From Mumia sp. ZJ1417 (lineage in GTDB: Bacteria; Actinomycetota; Actinomycetes; Propionibacteriales; Nocardioidaceae): DNA of 64,000 nt. Location of the stretch: contig NZ_CP059901.1 in NCBI RefSeq assembly GCF_014127285.1, positions 2,108,001 through 2,172,000 on the forward strand. The letters are read 5' to 3'. The notes below the pieces were generated by a model. That model saw only the letters and a program-made list of their open reading frames with translations, was not told the DNA's origin and did not search any database. Of this stretch, positions 24,219 through 28,446 are shown in pieces; position 1 is the first letter of the stretch, and each line of letters starts with the position of its first letter. A program made the translations under genes and the position numbers.

Positions 24219-25073
24219 CTAGGAGTCGGTGTCGCGCGAGCGCCGCTTGAGGTAGCGCTCGAACTCGCGCGCGATCGCGTCGCCCGAGGCCTCGGGCAGC
24301 TCGGAGGTGTCGCGCGCCTCCTCGAGCGACTCCACGTACGCGGCGATGTCGGCGTCGGAGCTCGCGAGGTCTTCGACACCGCGCTCCCACGCCCGCGCCA
24401 TCTCGCGTAGGTCACCGATCGGCAGGCTGATCTCGAGCACGTCCTCGAGATAGCCCAGCAGCGCCAGCGTCGCCTTGGGACTCGGGGGCTGCGCCACGTA
24501 GTGCGGGACGGCGGCCCACAGCGAGACCGTCGGAAGCTCCGCCGCGACGCAGGCCAGCGTAAAGACGCCGTTGATGCCGGTGGGCCCCTCGTACGAGGAG
24601 TCGTCGAGGCTCAGGCGGGCGTCGAGCTCGGGGTCGTTGGTGGTCCCCGTCACCGGCACCGGCCGCGTGTGCGGTGTGTCGGCGAGCAGCGCGCCGAGCG
24701 TGACGACCGCATGGCTCGCCAGCCGGTCGGCGATGGCGACGAGCTCGTCGCAGAACGAGATCCAGCGCATGTTCGGCTCGACGCCACGCACGAGCACCAC
24801 GTCGCGGTCGGAGCCCACCGGCCGCGCCACGTACACGCGGGTCGTGGGCCAGGTGATCGTCCGGTGCCCGTCGTCGTCAGTCCCGATCTGCGGGCGGTTG
24901 ACCTGGAAGTCGTAGTAGTCGTCCGGGTCGATCTCCGCGATGAGGTCGGCGTCCCACCACTCCACCAGGTGGTCGATCACGGAGCTGGCGGCGTCCGCAG
25001 CATCGTTCCAACCCTCGAACGCGACGACGAACCACGGGTCGACAACGGTGGGGAACTCGGTCTGCTCGCTCAC
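24219..25073 (-). CDS. PAC2 family protein
   Basis: PAC2 proteins resemble eukaryotic proteasome assembly chaperone 2, but their role in actinobacteria is not settled. The 284-residue protein shows the family core VAFEGWNDAADAASSVIDHL near the N-terminus, then the region around GVEPNMRWISFCDELVAIA and GPTGINGVFTLACVAAELPTVSLWAAVPHYV. It starts with GTG 6 nt after TAGAGT (25080-25085), so it is probably leaderless. The proteasome genes lie 7 kb away; a functional link is only suggestive. mshC ends 46 bp upstream. Confidence 0.88.
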   Translation of the reverse strand: MSEQTEFPTVVDPWFVVAFEGWNDAADAASSVIDHLVEWWDADLIAEIDPDDYYDFQVNRPQIGTDDDGHRTITWPTTRVYVARPVGSDRDVVLVRGVEPNMRWISFCDELVAIADRLASHAVVTLGALLADTPHTRPVPVTGTTNDPELDARLSLDDSSYEGPTGINGVFTLACVAAELPTVSLWAAVPHYVAQPPSPKATLALLGYLEDVLEISLPIGDLREMARAWERGVEDLASSDADIAAYVESLEEARDTSELPEASGDAIAREFERYLKRRSRDTDS

Positions 25074-25118: not shown

Positions 25119-26351
25119 TCAGACGACGCCGAGCAGCGCATCGACGGCCGCGCCGACCGTACGGCCTGCCCCCGGGACGCCGTCGCCAGCCACCGCGAGC
25201 GCAGCATCGACCCACGCGTCGACGGCCGCGATCGCCCGCGGCGCATCGAGATCGTGGGCCAGGGCGTCACGGATCGCGCTGACGACCGGAGCAGCCTCGG
25301 ACCCGCCCGTAGCGAAGGCCTCGCGCCACCGACCGAGACGCTTGGCGGCGTCCACGATCTCGCTGTCCGCCCACTCCCAGCCCGTGCGGTAGTGGTGCCC
25401 GAGCACCGCGAGCCGGATCGCCATCGGGTCATGGCCGTCGGCGCGCAGGCGCGACACGAGCACGAGGTTGCCGAGCGACTTGGACATCTTCTCGCCGGCG
25501 TACGCCACCATCGCCTGGTGGACGTACGCCCGCGCGAACCGCTGCTCGGTGGCGACCTGCGCCTCAGAAGCCGACATCTCGTGGTGCGGGAAGATCAGGT
25601 CGGTCCCGCCGCCCTGGACGTCGAAATCGTGCCCCAGCGTCTCGAGCGCGATCGACGAGCACTCCACGTGCCATCCGGGACGTCCGCGCCCGAACGGGCT
25701 CTCCCATGAGGGCTCGCCCGGACGCTCCGCCTGCCACAGGAGGCAGTCGAGCGGATCGCGCTTGCCGGGCCGGTCCGGGTCTCCCCCACGCTCGCTGAAC
25801 AGCCGCAACATGGTCTCGCTGTCATAGCCGGAGACCTCGCCGAAGCTGGCATCGGCGTGCACGGAGAAGTAGACGTCGCCCTCGACCTCGTATGTCACAC
25901 CGCGGTCGCGCAGGCGCTCGATCAGCGCGATCGCCAGGTCGATCGACTCGACGGCTCCGATGTAGTGGTCCGGGGCGAGGATCCGCAGCGCGGACATGTC
26001 CTCGCGGAAGAGCTCGATCTCGCGCTCGGCGAGGTCGGTCCACTCGATGCCGGTCGCCGTCGCGCGCTCCAGCAGCGGGTCGTCGACGTCGGTGATGTTC
26101 TGGGTGTAGACGACCTCGAGACCGCGGTCGCGCCAGGCGCGCTGCAGGAGGTCGAACGTCAGGTAGGTCGCGGCGTGGCCGAGATGAGTGGCGTCGTACG
26201 GGGTGATGCCGCACACGTACATGCGGGCACGGCCCTGCGGGTCGACGAGCACCGGGGAGCCGCTCGCGGTGTCGTGGACCTGGACAGCCGATCCGGGGCC
26301 GAGGCCGAGCTCGGAGAGGTCGGGGACTTCGGGGGACGTCCAGGCGCGCAT
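25119..26351 (-). CDS. mshC: L-cysteine:1D-myo-inositol 2-amino-2-deoxy-alpha-D-glucopyranoside ligase
   Basis: MshC joins cysteine to GlcN-Ins, the third step of mycothiol synthesis. The 410-residue protein resembles cysteinyl-tRNA synthetase without its C-terminal domain. It has the HIGH-like HLGH (57-60) in [14 protein letters not shown] and KMSKS at 288-292. The zinc ligands are probably Cys47, Cys231 and His256. The ATG at 26351 is chosen because homologues begin with M(R/Q)xW; an in-frame start at 26390 adds 13 residues that do not look conserved. [16 protein letters not shown] and [15 protein letters not shown] confirm the mycothiol subgroup. Confidence 0.95.
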
Positions 26352-26374
26352 GCCACGAGGGTATAAGGCGGTCC

Positions 26375-27193
26375 CTACACCGGCGGCCACGGGATCGTCG
26401 GCCAGCGGTCGCCCGGCGTGGGCATGCGGCCGGTCGTGAGCAGGAGGTCCAGCCGCTCGGAGAGGGCAGCGATCTCATCGGCGCTGATCAGGTCGGAGAG
26501 GGCGGCGCGCAGCGGTCCCGACGTGACCTTCTCGGACAGCGACTCGAGCCGCTGGCGATCGTCGTCGTCCAACGCCTCACCCGCCCAGCCCCACAGCACC
26601 GTACGGAGCTTGTCCTCGACGTGGAAGGTCAGCCCGTGGTCGCAGCCCAGCACCGTCTCGTCGACCGGCAGCAGGTGTCCGCCCTTGCGGTCCGCGTTGT
26701 TGACGACCGCGTCGAACAGCGCGATCGTCCGCAGCGGTGGGGTGTCGCGGTGCAGCAGCGTCACCTCGCGGTCGCGAGCGTCGACCGCGTCCACCACGGA
26801 GAACCAGCCCTCCGGATCGTCTCCGGCGGGCACGACGGCGATCTGGGCGAGCGCTGGGTCGATGTCGACCCACAACTGCACCATGCCCGGTCCGAACGGA
26901 CCGTCGGCGATCACCGTCGGTGGGACGACATGCCAGCCGGCGGCTTCGGAGACGAGGTAGGCGGCGCGCTCACGACCGGCGAGTGTGCCGTCGGGGAAGT
27001 CCCACAGCGGCCGCTCCCCCCGTACGGGCTTGTAGACGCACGCGAGCGAGCGCGAGCCGTCGGACACCTGCCCGTAGAAGGTGCCGTTGGAGGCCTCGAC
27101 GAGCCGGCCCGTGACCTCGAGCGTGCCTCGGCCGAGCAGTTCCGAGACACCGTGGCCTGCCGCGTAGCGTCGCGACGCTGCGAACTCAGTCAC
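26375..27193 (-). CDS. PI3/4-kinase-like protein of the SCO1664 family
   Basis: This is an uncharacterised kinase-like protein, widespread in actinobacteria, with distant similarity to phosphatidylinositol kinases. Of its 272 residues, Lys55 (CVYKPVRGE) would bind nucleotide. NNADRKGGH (165-173) matches a catalytic loop, and CDHGLTFH (184-191) a metal-binding DxG-like motif. The GTG at 27193 overlaps the DUF3090 stop by 8 bp and fits the conserved N-terminus; a longer frame exists upstream. It belongs to a conserved three-gene set with DUF3090 and a histidine-phosphatase-type phosphomutase; its substrate is unknown. Confidence 0.85.
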
Positions 27194-27704
27194 GGGCGAC
27201 CCGGCGGAAGCCGTTGGCGCGCGGGCAGAGATGGCCGTCGGCCTCGACCACTCCCCCGCAGAACGGGCACGTGGGCCGTCCGGCCGCGACCACGCTGCGG
27301 GCACGCTCGGCGAACTCGAGCGCGACCGCTGGCGGCATCGTCACGACGAGCACGTCACTGGCCTCGCTCTCGTCGTCGTCGGTCATCGCGAACGCCTCGA
27401 CGACGACCTCGCCGGTGTCGGGCTCCCACGCCAAGGTCATCGCGCCCACGCGGAACTCCTCCTCGATCGGCTGCTCGAGGGGGTCCAGGTCGACCGCTCG
27501 CCCAAGCCCTCCGCCGGCTGCCGCCTCCACCTCCACCAGGAGCGCCTCCAGGCGTTCGGCGAGCACCTCGACCTGCTGCTTCTCCAGGCCGACCGACGTG
27601 ACGCGGCCGCCGTCGCTAGCCTGCAGGAAGAACGTCCGGTCGCCAGGAACCCCGACCGTGCCGGCGACGAATCGACGCGGGCGTTCGTACCTGTGGATCA
27701 GCAT
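27186..27704 (-). CDS. DUF3090 family protein with C-terminal zinc ribbon
   Basis: This is a 172-residue conserved actinobacterial protein of unknown function. The N-terminal domain (RFVAGTVGVPGDRTFFLQA) is an acidic mixed fold. The C-terminus carries CPFC-x8-HLC (Cys146, Cys149, His158, Cys160), which probably binds zinc. The ATG at 27704 lies 7 nt after TAGGCT (27712-27717), so the transcript is probably leaderless. It overlaps the kinase-like gene by 8 bp, and the phosphomutase gene ends 50 bp upstream on the same strand. Confidence 0.85.
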   Translation of the reverse strand: MLIHRYERPRRFVAGTVGVPGDRTFFLQASDGGRVTSVGLEKQQVEVLAERLEALLVEVEAAAGGGLGRAVDLDPLEQPIEEEFRVGAMTLAWEPDTGEVVVEAFAMTDDDESEASDVLVVTMPPAVALEFAERARSVVAAGRPTCPFCGGVVEADGHLCPRANGFRRVARD

Positions 27705-27711
27705 GACACCG

Positions 27712-27717
27712 AGCCTA
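27712..27717 (-). promoter_or_regulatory. -10 box of the DUF3090-kinase operon (leaderless)
   Basis: TAGGCT on the minus strand lies 7 nt before the DUF3090 ATG. Confidence 0.5.
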
Positions 27718-27753
27718 GACAGGGCCTCGGAGCGCGGCGACTCCTGTCCCCGC

Positions 27754-28446
27754 TCACGCGCCACCACCGACCGGAGCGTCGCCGGTGGCCGCCTTCGAGT
27801 CGCCCGCCGGGGGTACGAGGCCGCTGAGATCCGAGCCGAGGTCGTTGACGTGGTGGACGGTCGGTCGCTGCGTCCCGTACGTGATCGCGCTGACCGACCC
27901 GGGGCTCACGGCGATCCGTTGGAAGAGGTCGAGGTGGGTGCCGAGGGCGTCGGCAACGATGGCCTTGATCACGTCGCCGTGGCTGACTGCGACCCACACC
28001 GCCCGGCCGCCGTGGCGCCGCGCCACCCGCCGGTCGATGCGCCGGGCCGTCTCGACCGCGCGTGCCGCCATCGTCGTCATCGCCTCGCCACCTGGAAAGA
28101 CCACGGCGCTCGGTTGCTGCTGGACGCTCGCCCACAACGGCTGCTTTGCGAGGTCGGTGATCGCCCGCCCGGTCCACCTGCCGTAGTCGCACTCCACGAG
28201 CCCCGCGTCGCGGCGTACGGGGACCGTGTCGGGCTGTGCCTCGGCGATCGTGCGCGCCGTCTGCATCGTGCGCATCAGCGGGCTGCTCACGATGAGCGAG
28301 AGGGGCACCGCCGCGAGGCGCTCGGCGACGCGTGCGGCCTGAGTGCGGCCGGTCGGGTCCAGGCCGATGCCGCGCGTCCGGCCCGCGAGAATGCCCTGGG
28401 CGTTGGCATCGGTCCGCCCGTGACGGACGAGGATCAAGGTCGGCAC
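27754..28446 (-). CDS. Histidine-phosphatase-type phosphomutase, MSMEG_4193 family
   Basis: This is a 230-residue member of the phosphoglycerate-mutase superfamily, predicted to act as phosphomutase or phosphatase. The phosphohistidine motif is LVRHGRTDAN (His9), with SSPLMRTMQTA, ECDYGRWTG and VAVSHGDVIK supplying the other active-site residues. The GTG at 28446 lies 6 nt after TACGCT (28453-28458), so it is probably leaderless; the long upstream frame is not credible. It forms a conserved trio with DUF3090 and the PI-kinase-like protein, which suggests a shared phosphorylated metabolite. Confidence 0.88.
   Translation of the reverse strand: MPTLILVRHGRTDANAQGILAGRTRGIGLDPTGRTQAARVAERLAAVPLSLIVSSPLMRTMQTARTIAEAQPDTVPVRRDAGLVECDYGRWTGRAITDLAKQPLWASVQQQPSAVVFPGGEAMTTMAARAVETARRIDRRVARRHGGRAVWVAVSHGDVIKAIVADALGTHLDLFQRIAVSPGSVSAITYGTQRPTVHHVNDLGSDLSGLVPPAGDSKAATGDAPVGGGA

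Follow-up and report, generated by a model that had tools for sequence, protein, structure and literature searches.

In the window analysed here, a 64,000-nucleotide stretch of the Mumia sp. ZJ1417 genome (contig NZ_CP059901.1, positions 2,108,001–2,172,000), three adjacent genes encode a histidine phosphatase, a DUF3090 protein and a SCO1664-family protein with the predicted fold of a kinase (Table 1). We tentatively propose, with a probability of roughly 0.4, that this trio is a self-contained phosphorylation module, in which the kinase and the phosphatase act on one target and DUF3090 is a partner, rather than a mycothiol gene set. The phosphatase carries an RHG motif, DUF3090 has CPFC...HLC close to its C-terminus, and Lys55, NNADRKGGH and CDHG, the kinase motifs listed in the initial annotation of this DNA, are all present. 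The GTG start codon of the kinase gene sits within the 3′ end of the DUF3090 gene, with an overlap of 8 bases (27186–27193), and mshC (613.8 bits against TIGR03447) starts 23 bp downstream of the kinase gene. The gene coordinates, gene order and 8-bp overlap given earlier agree with the open reading frames of the window; the span 25119–28446 covers four genes because mshC is included.

Table 1. Genes of the trio and the two genes downstream of it in the window.
Feature	Coordinates	Strand	Family matches	Start codon; product length (amino acids)
Histidine phosphatase, MSMEG_4193 family, first gene of the trio	27754..28446	minus	TIGR03848, PF00300	GTG (28446); 230
DUF3090 protein, modelled PUR/Whirly-like fold, C-terminal CxxC..HxC	27186..27704	minus	PF11290, TIGR03847	ATG (27704); 172
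SCO1664-family kinase, phosphatidylinositol 4-kinase (PI4K) type II/Fam20-like fold by model	26375..27193	minus	TIGR03843	GTG (27193); 272
mshC, mycothiol cysteine ligase, class-specific neighbour judged to be outside the module	25119..26351	minus	TIGR03447	
PAC2-family protein downstream of mshC, judged to be outside the module	24219..25073	minus	PF09754	

All three proteins score above the NCBIfam cut-offs of their families: the kinase with 348.7 bits against TIGR03843 (cut-off 172.4), DUF3090 with 200.9 bits against TIGR03847 (cut-off 117.25) and the phosphatase with 285.9 bits against TIGR03848 (cut-off 203.85). Since they are also adjacent and in the order phosphatase–DUF3090–kinase, the window trio is a further member of the catalogued SCO1664/DUF3090/MSMEG_4193 gene set. 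These models assign no function; their notes describe a three-gene set that also occurs in Chloroflexi. The term “undescribed system” used in the initial annotation was therefore too strong: the families are named in NCBIfam, the neighbourhood of SCO1664 and mshC together with a possible functional link is already in print (excerpt of PMC4255298), and for the phosphatase, a homologue from mycobacteria was purified and assayed before (excerpt of PMC3866925). The present analysis adds the breadth of the set in Chloroflexota, its presence without mshC and the existence of two-gene variants. The trio is widespread (it is present in all 13 genomes sampled from the window's class, and its kinase in 108 of 201 sampled Chloroflexota), yet the open-access literature searched yielded no functional study of the trio kinase or of DUF3090.

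The distribution of the set was followed in a sample of 149 Actinomycetota genomes, one of them 7% contaminated. Because many of these are draft metagenome-assembled genomes (MAGs), single absences may be gaps. At E ≤ 0.001, kinase matches were found in 64 of the 149 genomes (62 over the cut-off), and the genomes with DUF3090 matches were these 64 and no others (58 of them over the cut-off). A phosphatase gene adjoins DUF3090 in all 64, although its score alone is no clean separator, the lowest trio member reaching 143 bits (G077) and the best non-trio protein 157 bits (G076). In 62 of the 64 the order phosphatase–DUF3090–kinase is kept on one strand and one contig, and in the other two (G070 and G081) contig ends split the set; regions were inspected for 58 of the 63 trio genomes other than the window's, while match coordinates gave the order in the last five. 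The DUF3090–kinase gap widens to about 1 kb in one genome (G140), and the kinase match is partial in another (G010). The trio is also present in mycobacteria and streptomycetes. The earlier description of a conserved actinobacterial three-gene set is thus borne out: co-inheritance of the trio genes is strong, and they tend to stay together in two phyla, Actinomycetota and Chloroflexota.

In an alignment of 58 kinases (A1; L087 was omitted from the kinase references, and a further alignment, A4, used 31 of the 57 references), residues S35, N36, K55, E75, D161, N166, D168, R169, K170, H173 and D185 are invariant. A wider motif set contained 139 kinases, some of them incomplete, with matches from the second set kept only if they exceeded 90 bits; N.DRK..H is present in 130 of these sequences, DHG in 89 and DNG in 28. 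By analogy with related families, we take K55 to be the conserved Lys, D168 the catalytic Asp and D185 the metal Asp; where the trio kinase has H173, the PI4KII, Fam20, CtkA and HipA families have an Asn, which in the catalytic loop of PI4KII binds metal. On its own, the window kinase matched no Pfam family at E ≤ 1. Of the 58 family members, 53 matched PF00454 (PI3_PI4_kinase) at E ≤ 0.1, the best at 7.5e-14, while HipA_2 was matched by 10 members and Fam20C, weakly, by 4. Single-sequence searches of the PDB with the kinase and with DUF3090 gave nothing credible; a kinase profile retrieved PI4K2B (E 4.4e-4) and FAM20A (E 1.4e-3).

The AlphaFold model of the kinase (predicted local distance difference test, pLDDT, 92.7) is most similar to the type II phosphatidylinositol 4-kinases alpha and beta (Z 16.8–18.1 over 224–230 residues), with PI4KII beta the nearest (Z 18.1, 228 residues, 4.1 Å, 16% identity). 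Fam20 kinases form the second-nearest group (Z 13.4–15.0), followed by CtkA (Z 13) and HipA (Z 10–11). The trio kinase is only 16–18% identical to PI4KII and differs from it by His173 in place of the metal-binding Asn. It is bacterial, whereas the Fam20 kinases are eukaryotic and located in the secretory pathway. The designation “PI-kinase-like” in the initial annotation is supported by the model, the profile search and the PF00454 matches of relatives. Judged by its modelled fold and by the conservation of K55, D168 and D185, the kinase looks active, and its candidate substrate is a lipid, a sugar or a protein. A role in defence was rejected, there being one weak PADLOC match for the kinase (E 0.014, 12.6 bits) and none for DUF3090 or the phosphatase.

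The window phosphatase matches PF00300 with 165.6 bits. In an alignment of 37 phosphatases (A3, in which 36 of the 57 listed references were used; L087 and L088 were omitted from the phosphatase and DUF3090 references), R8, H9, R59, E85 and H156 are invariant. These supply the RHG/RHA motif, second Arg, Glu and C-terminal His of branch 1 histidine phosphatases, so the enzyme had rightly been called intact. We take Rv2133c–Rv2135c of Mycobacterium tuberculosis to be the same trio. The identity of phosphomutase, which stems from the NCBIfam name, was rejected, because the homologue Rv2135c, which carries RHA where the window protein has RHG, is described as an acid phosphatase without mutase activity (excerpt of PMC3866925). 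According to the same excerpt, Rv2135c is weakly active on p-nitrophenyl phosphate, phosphoenolpyruvate, glycerol-1-phosphate and fructose-6-phosphate and inactive on glucose-6-phosphate, 3-phosphoglycerate and ADP; the substrate table in that excerpt contains neither inositol phosphates nor phosphoproteins.

A kinase next to a phosphatase may also represent a metabolic route with a transient phosphate, in which both enzymes act one after the other on one sugar-like compound. FAM20B and the dedicated 2-phosphoxylose phosphatase XYLP oppose each other in this way on the xylose of proteoglycans (excerpt of PMC12110425), the two phosphatases being likened by description only. The position of Fam20 as second-nearest fold group agrees with such a route, as do the tenth rank of a sugar-bound hydra Fam20 structure (Z 15.0) among the neighbours of the kinase model and the behaviour of the mycobacterial phosphatase, which is weakly active on fructose-6-phosphate and inactive on glucose-6-phosphate. 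However, no conserved gene for a glycosyltransferase or polymer synthesis was seen among 40 neighbour proteins scanned, each representing one cluster in a sample of the clusters, UppS in one lineage excepted, and in 6 of 20 kinase-bearing Chloroflexota the phosphatase gave no match at E ≤ 1e-40. We consider this route unlikely.

The third protein, DUF3090, was modelled with a pLDDT of 90.8 and a predicted template modelling score of 0.79. The five best VIA rows for the model are all PUR-alpha (Z 9.3–10.0 over 110–115 residues, 8–11% identity), the best of them aligning with PUR repeats I–II; two proteins without assigned function (Z 6.5–6.6) and then Whirly and MRP1/2 (Z 5–6) follow. Since the structure tool often gives Z 7–8 to models that have no clear match, a Z of 10 is a moderate signal for the tandem fold of β-sheet plus helix that characterises PUR/Whirly proteins. 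PUR-alpha was also the best Foldseek match (E 2e-3), with no match at E ≤ 0.001, and a profile search of the PDB gave nothing credible. The two halves of DUF3090 align in register (P 0.0027), at a probability of 11%. The C-terminal CxxC–HxC ribbon pointed out earlier matches a conserved zinc motif: CxxC..HxC occurs in 117 of 130 sequences, and of the 13 others four stop before the motif, eight have CxC for HxC and in one (L162) the His is missing. A metal motif in DUF3090 had been noted before (excerpt of PMC9425974), and the family is named among Streptomyces clusters without function (excerpt of PMC13118837). We take Rv2134c to be the mycobacterial DUF3090 protein. In Mycobacterium bovis BCG, Rv2134c is among the insertion mutants with altered sensitivity to rifampicin below the minimal inhibitory concentration (−1.42, p < 0.001; excerpt of PMC11329110), an unspecific hint of a phenotype.

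PUR domains bind nucleic acid (excerpt of PMC3764826), and it can be envisaged that the PUR/Whirly-like fold and the zinc motif enable DUF3090 to bind RNA or single-stranded DNA, with the kinase and phosphatase setting its phosphorylation state. The PUR-alpha likeness, the in-register halves and the identical distribution of kinase and DUF3090 over 64 genomes fit such a nucleic-acid switch. However, DUF3090 is strongly acidic (median isoelectric point 4.6, median net charge −12, 130 sequences), which argues against binding of RNA or single-stranded DNA, and its alignment contains no invariant Ser or Thr. The modelled likeness to PUR-alpha amounts to 8% identity for the best row, the zinc motif is an addition to it, and a shared fold proves no function. 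Finally, kinase and phosphatase pairs without DUF3090 exist. Such a switch appears rather unlikely to us. A broader version, in which a PI4KII/Fam20-type kinase and its dedicated phosphatase form a signalling module controlling a zinc-containing PUR/Whirly-fold DUF3090 throughout Actinomycetota and Chloroflexota, with a horizontally spread two-gene version replacing the full set in some actinomycetes, would be a doubtful proposition as a whole.

The initial annotation had linked the trio to inositol-based mycothiol synthesis. Among the 149 genomes, MshC above the cut-off was found in 13, which are the 13 of the window's class and all contain the trio; in 12 of them the distance between mshC and the kinase gene is about 2 kb or less, and in the remaining one (G008) mshC is on another contig. 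By contrast, MshC above the cut-off is missing from 51 of the 64 trio genomes. Fifteen of these (for example, G129, G016, G124 and G099) encode an MshC-like protein of 391–446 bits, below the MshC cut-off and well above cysteinyl-tRNA synthetase, which may be a diverged MshC or another ligase. In the other 36, no MshC or MshC-like gene reaches 390 bits: scores are at most 345 and go down to the level of cysteinyl-tRNA synthetase, and one genome (G119) has an MshC-type fragment cut by a contig end. None of 20 kinase-bearing Chloroflexota has MshC above the cut-off, five having matches of 354–386 bits. The trio is thus not confined, even mainly, to genomes with mshC. The proposed co-occurrence holds in one direction, since the trio is present in each of the 28 genomes where MshC or an MshC-like gene scores at least 390 bits, and fails in the other.

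The inositol part of the proposal gained no support. Inositol-1-phosphate synthase (PF01658) is present in 61 of the 64 trio genomes versus 44 of the 85 others in the phylum (Fisher p 1.5e-9). Because this contrast compares different lineages, the comparison was repeated within Chloroflexota, where the synthase was found in 102 of the 108 genomes with the kinase (and thus not found in 6) versus 87 of the 93 without it (Fisher p = 1.0). The enrichment in the phylum, with none in Chloroflexota, was therefore treated as lineage confounding. Among the 25 genomes that underlie loci with titles, the synthase occurs in 16 of 20 Chloroflexota and in 3 of 5 genomes that carry only the kinase and phosphatase.

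A mycothiol or inositol side-pathway, in which inositol, GlcN-Ins or an inositol lipid would be phosphorylated by the kinase and dephosphorylated by the phosphatase, with mshC as a functional neighbour, is improbable in our view. The proximity of mshC in one class, the one-way link, the synthase counts in the phylum, the nearest modelled fold being that of an inositol-lipid kinase and the link suggested in print all speak for it; the trio genomes without MshC, the equal synthase frequencies in Chloroflexota and the separate contigs of mshC and the kinase–phosphatase pair in five genomes speak against it. As the core function of the set, mycothiol was rejected on the data on MshC presence and neighbourhood. 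Since the trio occurs without mshC and its neighbours depend on lineage, the set stands alone, and the mshC neighbourhood is a feature of one class. The trio being mostly found without mycothiol genes, experiments that measure only mycothiol and inositol phosphates might overlook a phenotype.

Incomplete sets were found in a wider collection of loci, namely the best 80 of 586 relatives when these are ordered by similarity to a single divergent sequence, which is no census and in which the kinase, as the search query, is the constant member by choice. Five loci of this collection (L121, L135, L138, L144 and L145), from Micrococcaceae and relatives, namely two Kocuria, two Citricoccus and a Propioniciclava, contain kinase and phosphatase genes without DUF3090. 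Each of the five genomes has one phosphatase at E ≤ 1e-40. A second, two-gene copy (L036, 7823–9263) is present in G008, whose genome also holds the full set. In a quick, midpoint-rooted tree of 138 of the 139 kinases, which has several weak forks, the five pair kinases and L036 form one clade of 6 with a Shimodaira–Hasegawa-like approximate likelihood ratio support of 98; this clade falls among Acidimicrobiia-type kinases and is separate from the kinases found in the window's class. Since the pairs group as one clade, kinase and phosphatase travel as a unit, and the simplest reading is that the two-gene version was horizontally transferred, being added in G008 and standing in for the full set in the five others. 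In the five pair genomes, a gene of a VWA cluster lies nearby in all and a gene of a MoxR-like AAA cluster in four, on the opposite strand (one representative of each was scanned).

Among the 20 kinase-bearing Chloroflexota, DUF3090 (E ≤ 1e-5) is present in all, elsewhere in the genome in two and about 5.6 kb away in one; the phosphatase (E ≤ 1e-40) is present in 14, beside the set in 10 and elsewhere in the genome in four. Kinase–phosphatase pairs and kinase–DUF3090 sets are natural variants that can be used to dissect the part of each protein. In one Anaerolineae MAG (L167, 6630–7895), phosphatase and DUF3090 occupy a single open frame, either a fusion or a lost stop codon; it was left out of the evidence because it comes from a single MAG and its linker could encode a ribosome-binding site. 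Several kinases from MAGs with other titles (Bifidobacterium breve for L103 and L160, Rokuibacteriota for L106, L112 and L113, and Acidobacteria for L143) group with Acidimicrobiia-type or other actinobacterial ones, so that the titles or bins may be wrong, or genes may have been transferred.

The self-contained phosphorylation module introduced above draws on gene order, co-occurrence, conservation of catalytic residues, occurrence without mshC and the modelled folds. In such a module, the kinase, a putative bacterial relative of type II PI4-kinases and Fam20, would move a phosphate from ATP onto a hydroxyl of one target, probably other than a mycothiol intermediate. The adjacent histidine phosphatase would strip the same phosphate, so that the pair would set the duration of the mark, and DUF3090, with its zinc motif and predicted PUR/Whirly-like fold, might be a non-catalytic partner of the kinase, either an activator or a target adaptor. 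Several observations weigh against this proposal. A whole-genome search did not find DUF3090 in any of the five pair genomes, and Corynebacterium glutamicum, a control, has kinase and phosphatase over the cut-off and no DUF3090 match; DUF3090 is therefore not always needed. In 6 of the 20 kinase-bearing Chloroflexota no phosphatase matched at E ≤ 1e-40, and in four more it lies elsewhere in the genome. This speaks against an obligate write/erase pair, unless a different phosphatase substitutes. Genomes with only some members, named at the outset as a possible refutation of a common system, thus do exist in both directions, alongside the many complete sets. To these points come the 28 of 28 association with MshC and MshC-like genes and the absence of any report of kinase activity for the SCO1664 family in the open-access literature searched. 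Kinase and phosphatase could also catalyse successive steps on different substrates.

Genes surrounding the set outside the window's class were scanned as 40 proteins, one per cluster, covering part of all clusters. No recurrent partner was found among these representatives, which differ by lineage and include acetyl-CoA synthetase-like protein, histidine kinase, fumarase, prolyl-tRNA synthetase, uracil-DNA glycosylase, MGMT, threonine-dehydratase-like protein, RecO with undecaprenyl diphosphate synthase, HflX and homoserine dehydrogenase, as well as ribosomal protein L19 with peptidase C26 and a racemase. A role in undecaprenyl-phosphate metabolism, proposed from the mycobacterial uppP neighbour (excerpt of PMC3866925), is very improbable: a uppP gene does lie in the window (32528–31689), and an undecaprenyl diphosphate synthase gene follows RecO in six loci of family f14, but CorA and two other long open reading frames separate uppP from the phosphatase gene, and no uppP was seen in the sampled clusters of neighbours outside the class. 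The RecO and synthase genes of that family (L068–L074) are located downstream of the kinase gene.

In the window, the PAC2 gene is co-directional with mshC, whereas genes of its cluster have the reverse orientation in related loci, L032 and L033 among them. A gene that modestly matches DUF6183 (41–43 bits) follows the kinase gene on the same strand in L147 (8422–9708), L066 (10382–11596) and related loci, and the cluster of the DUF6183-like gene is found in 18 of 80 loci.

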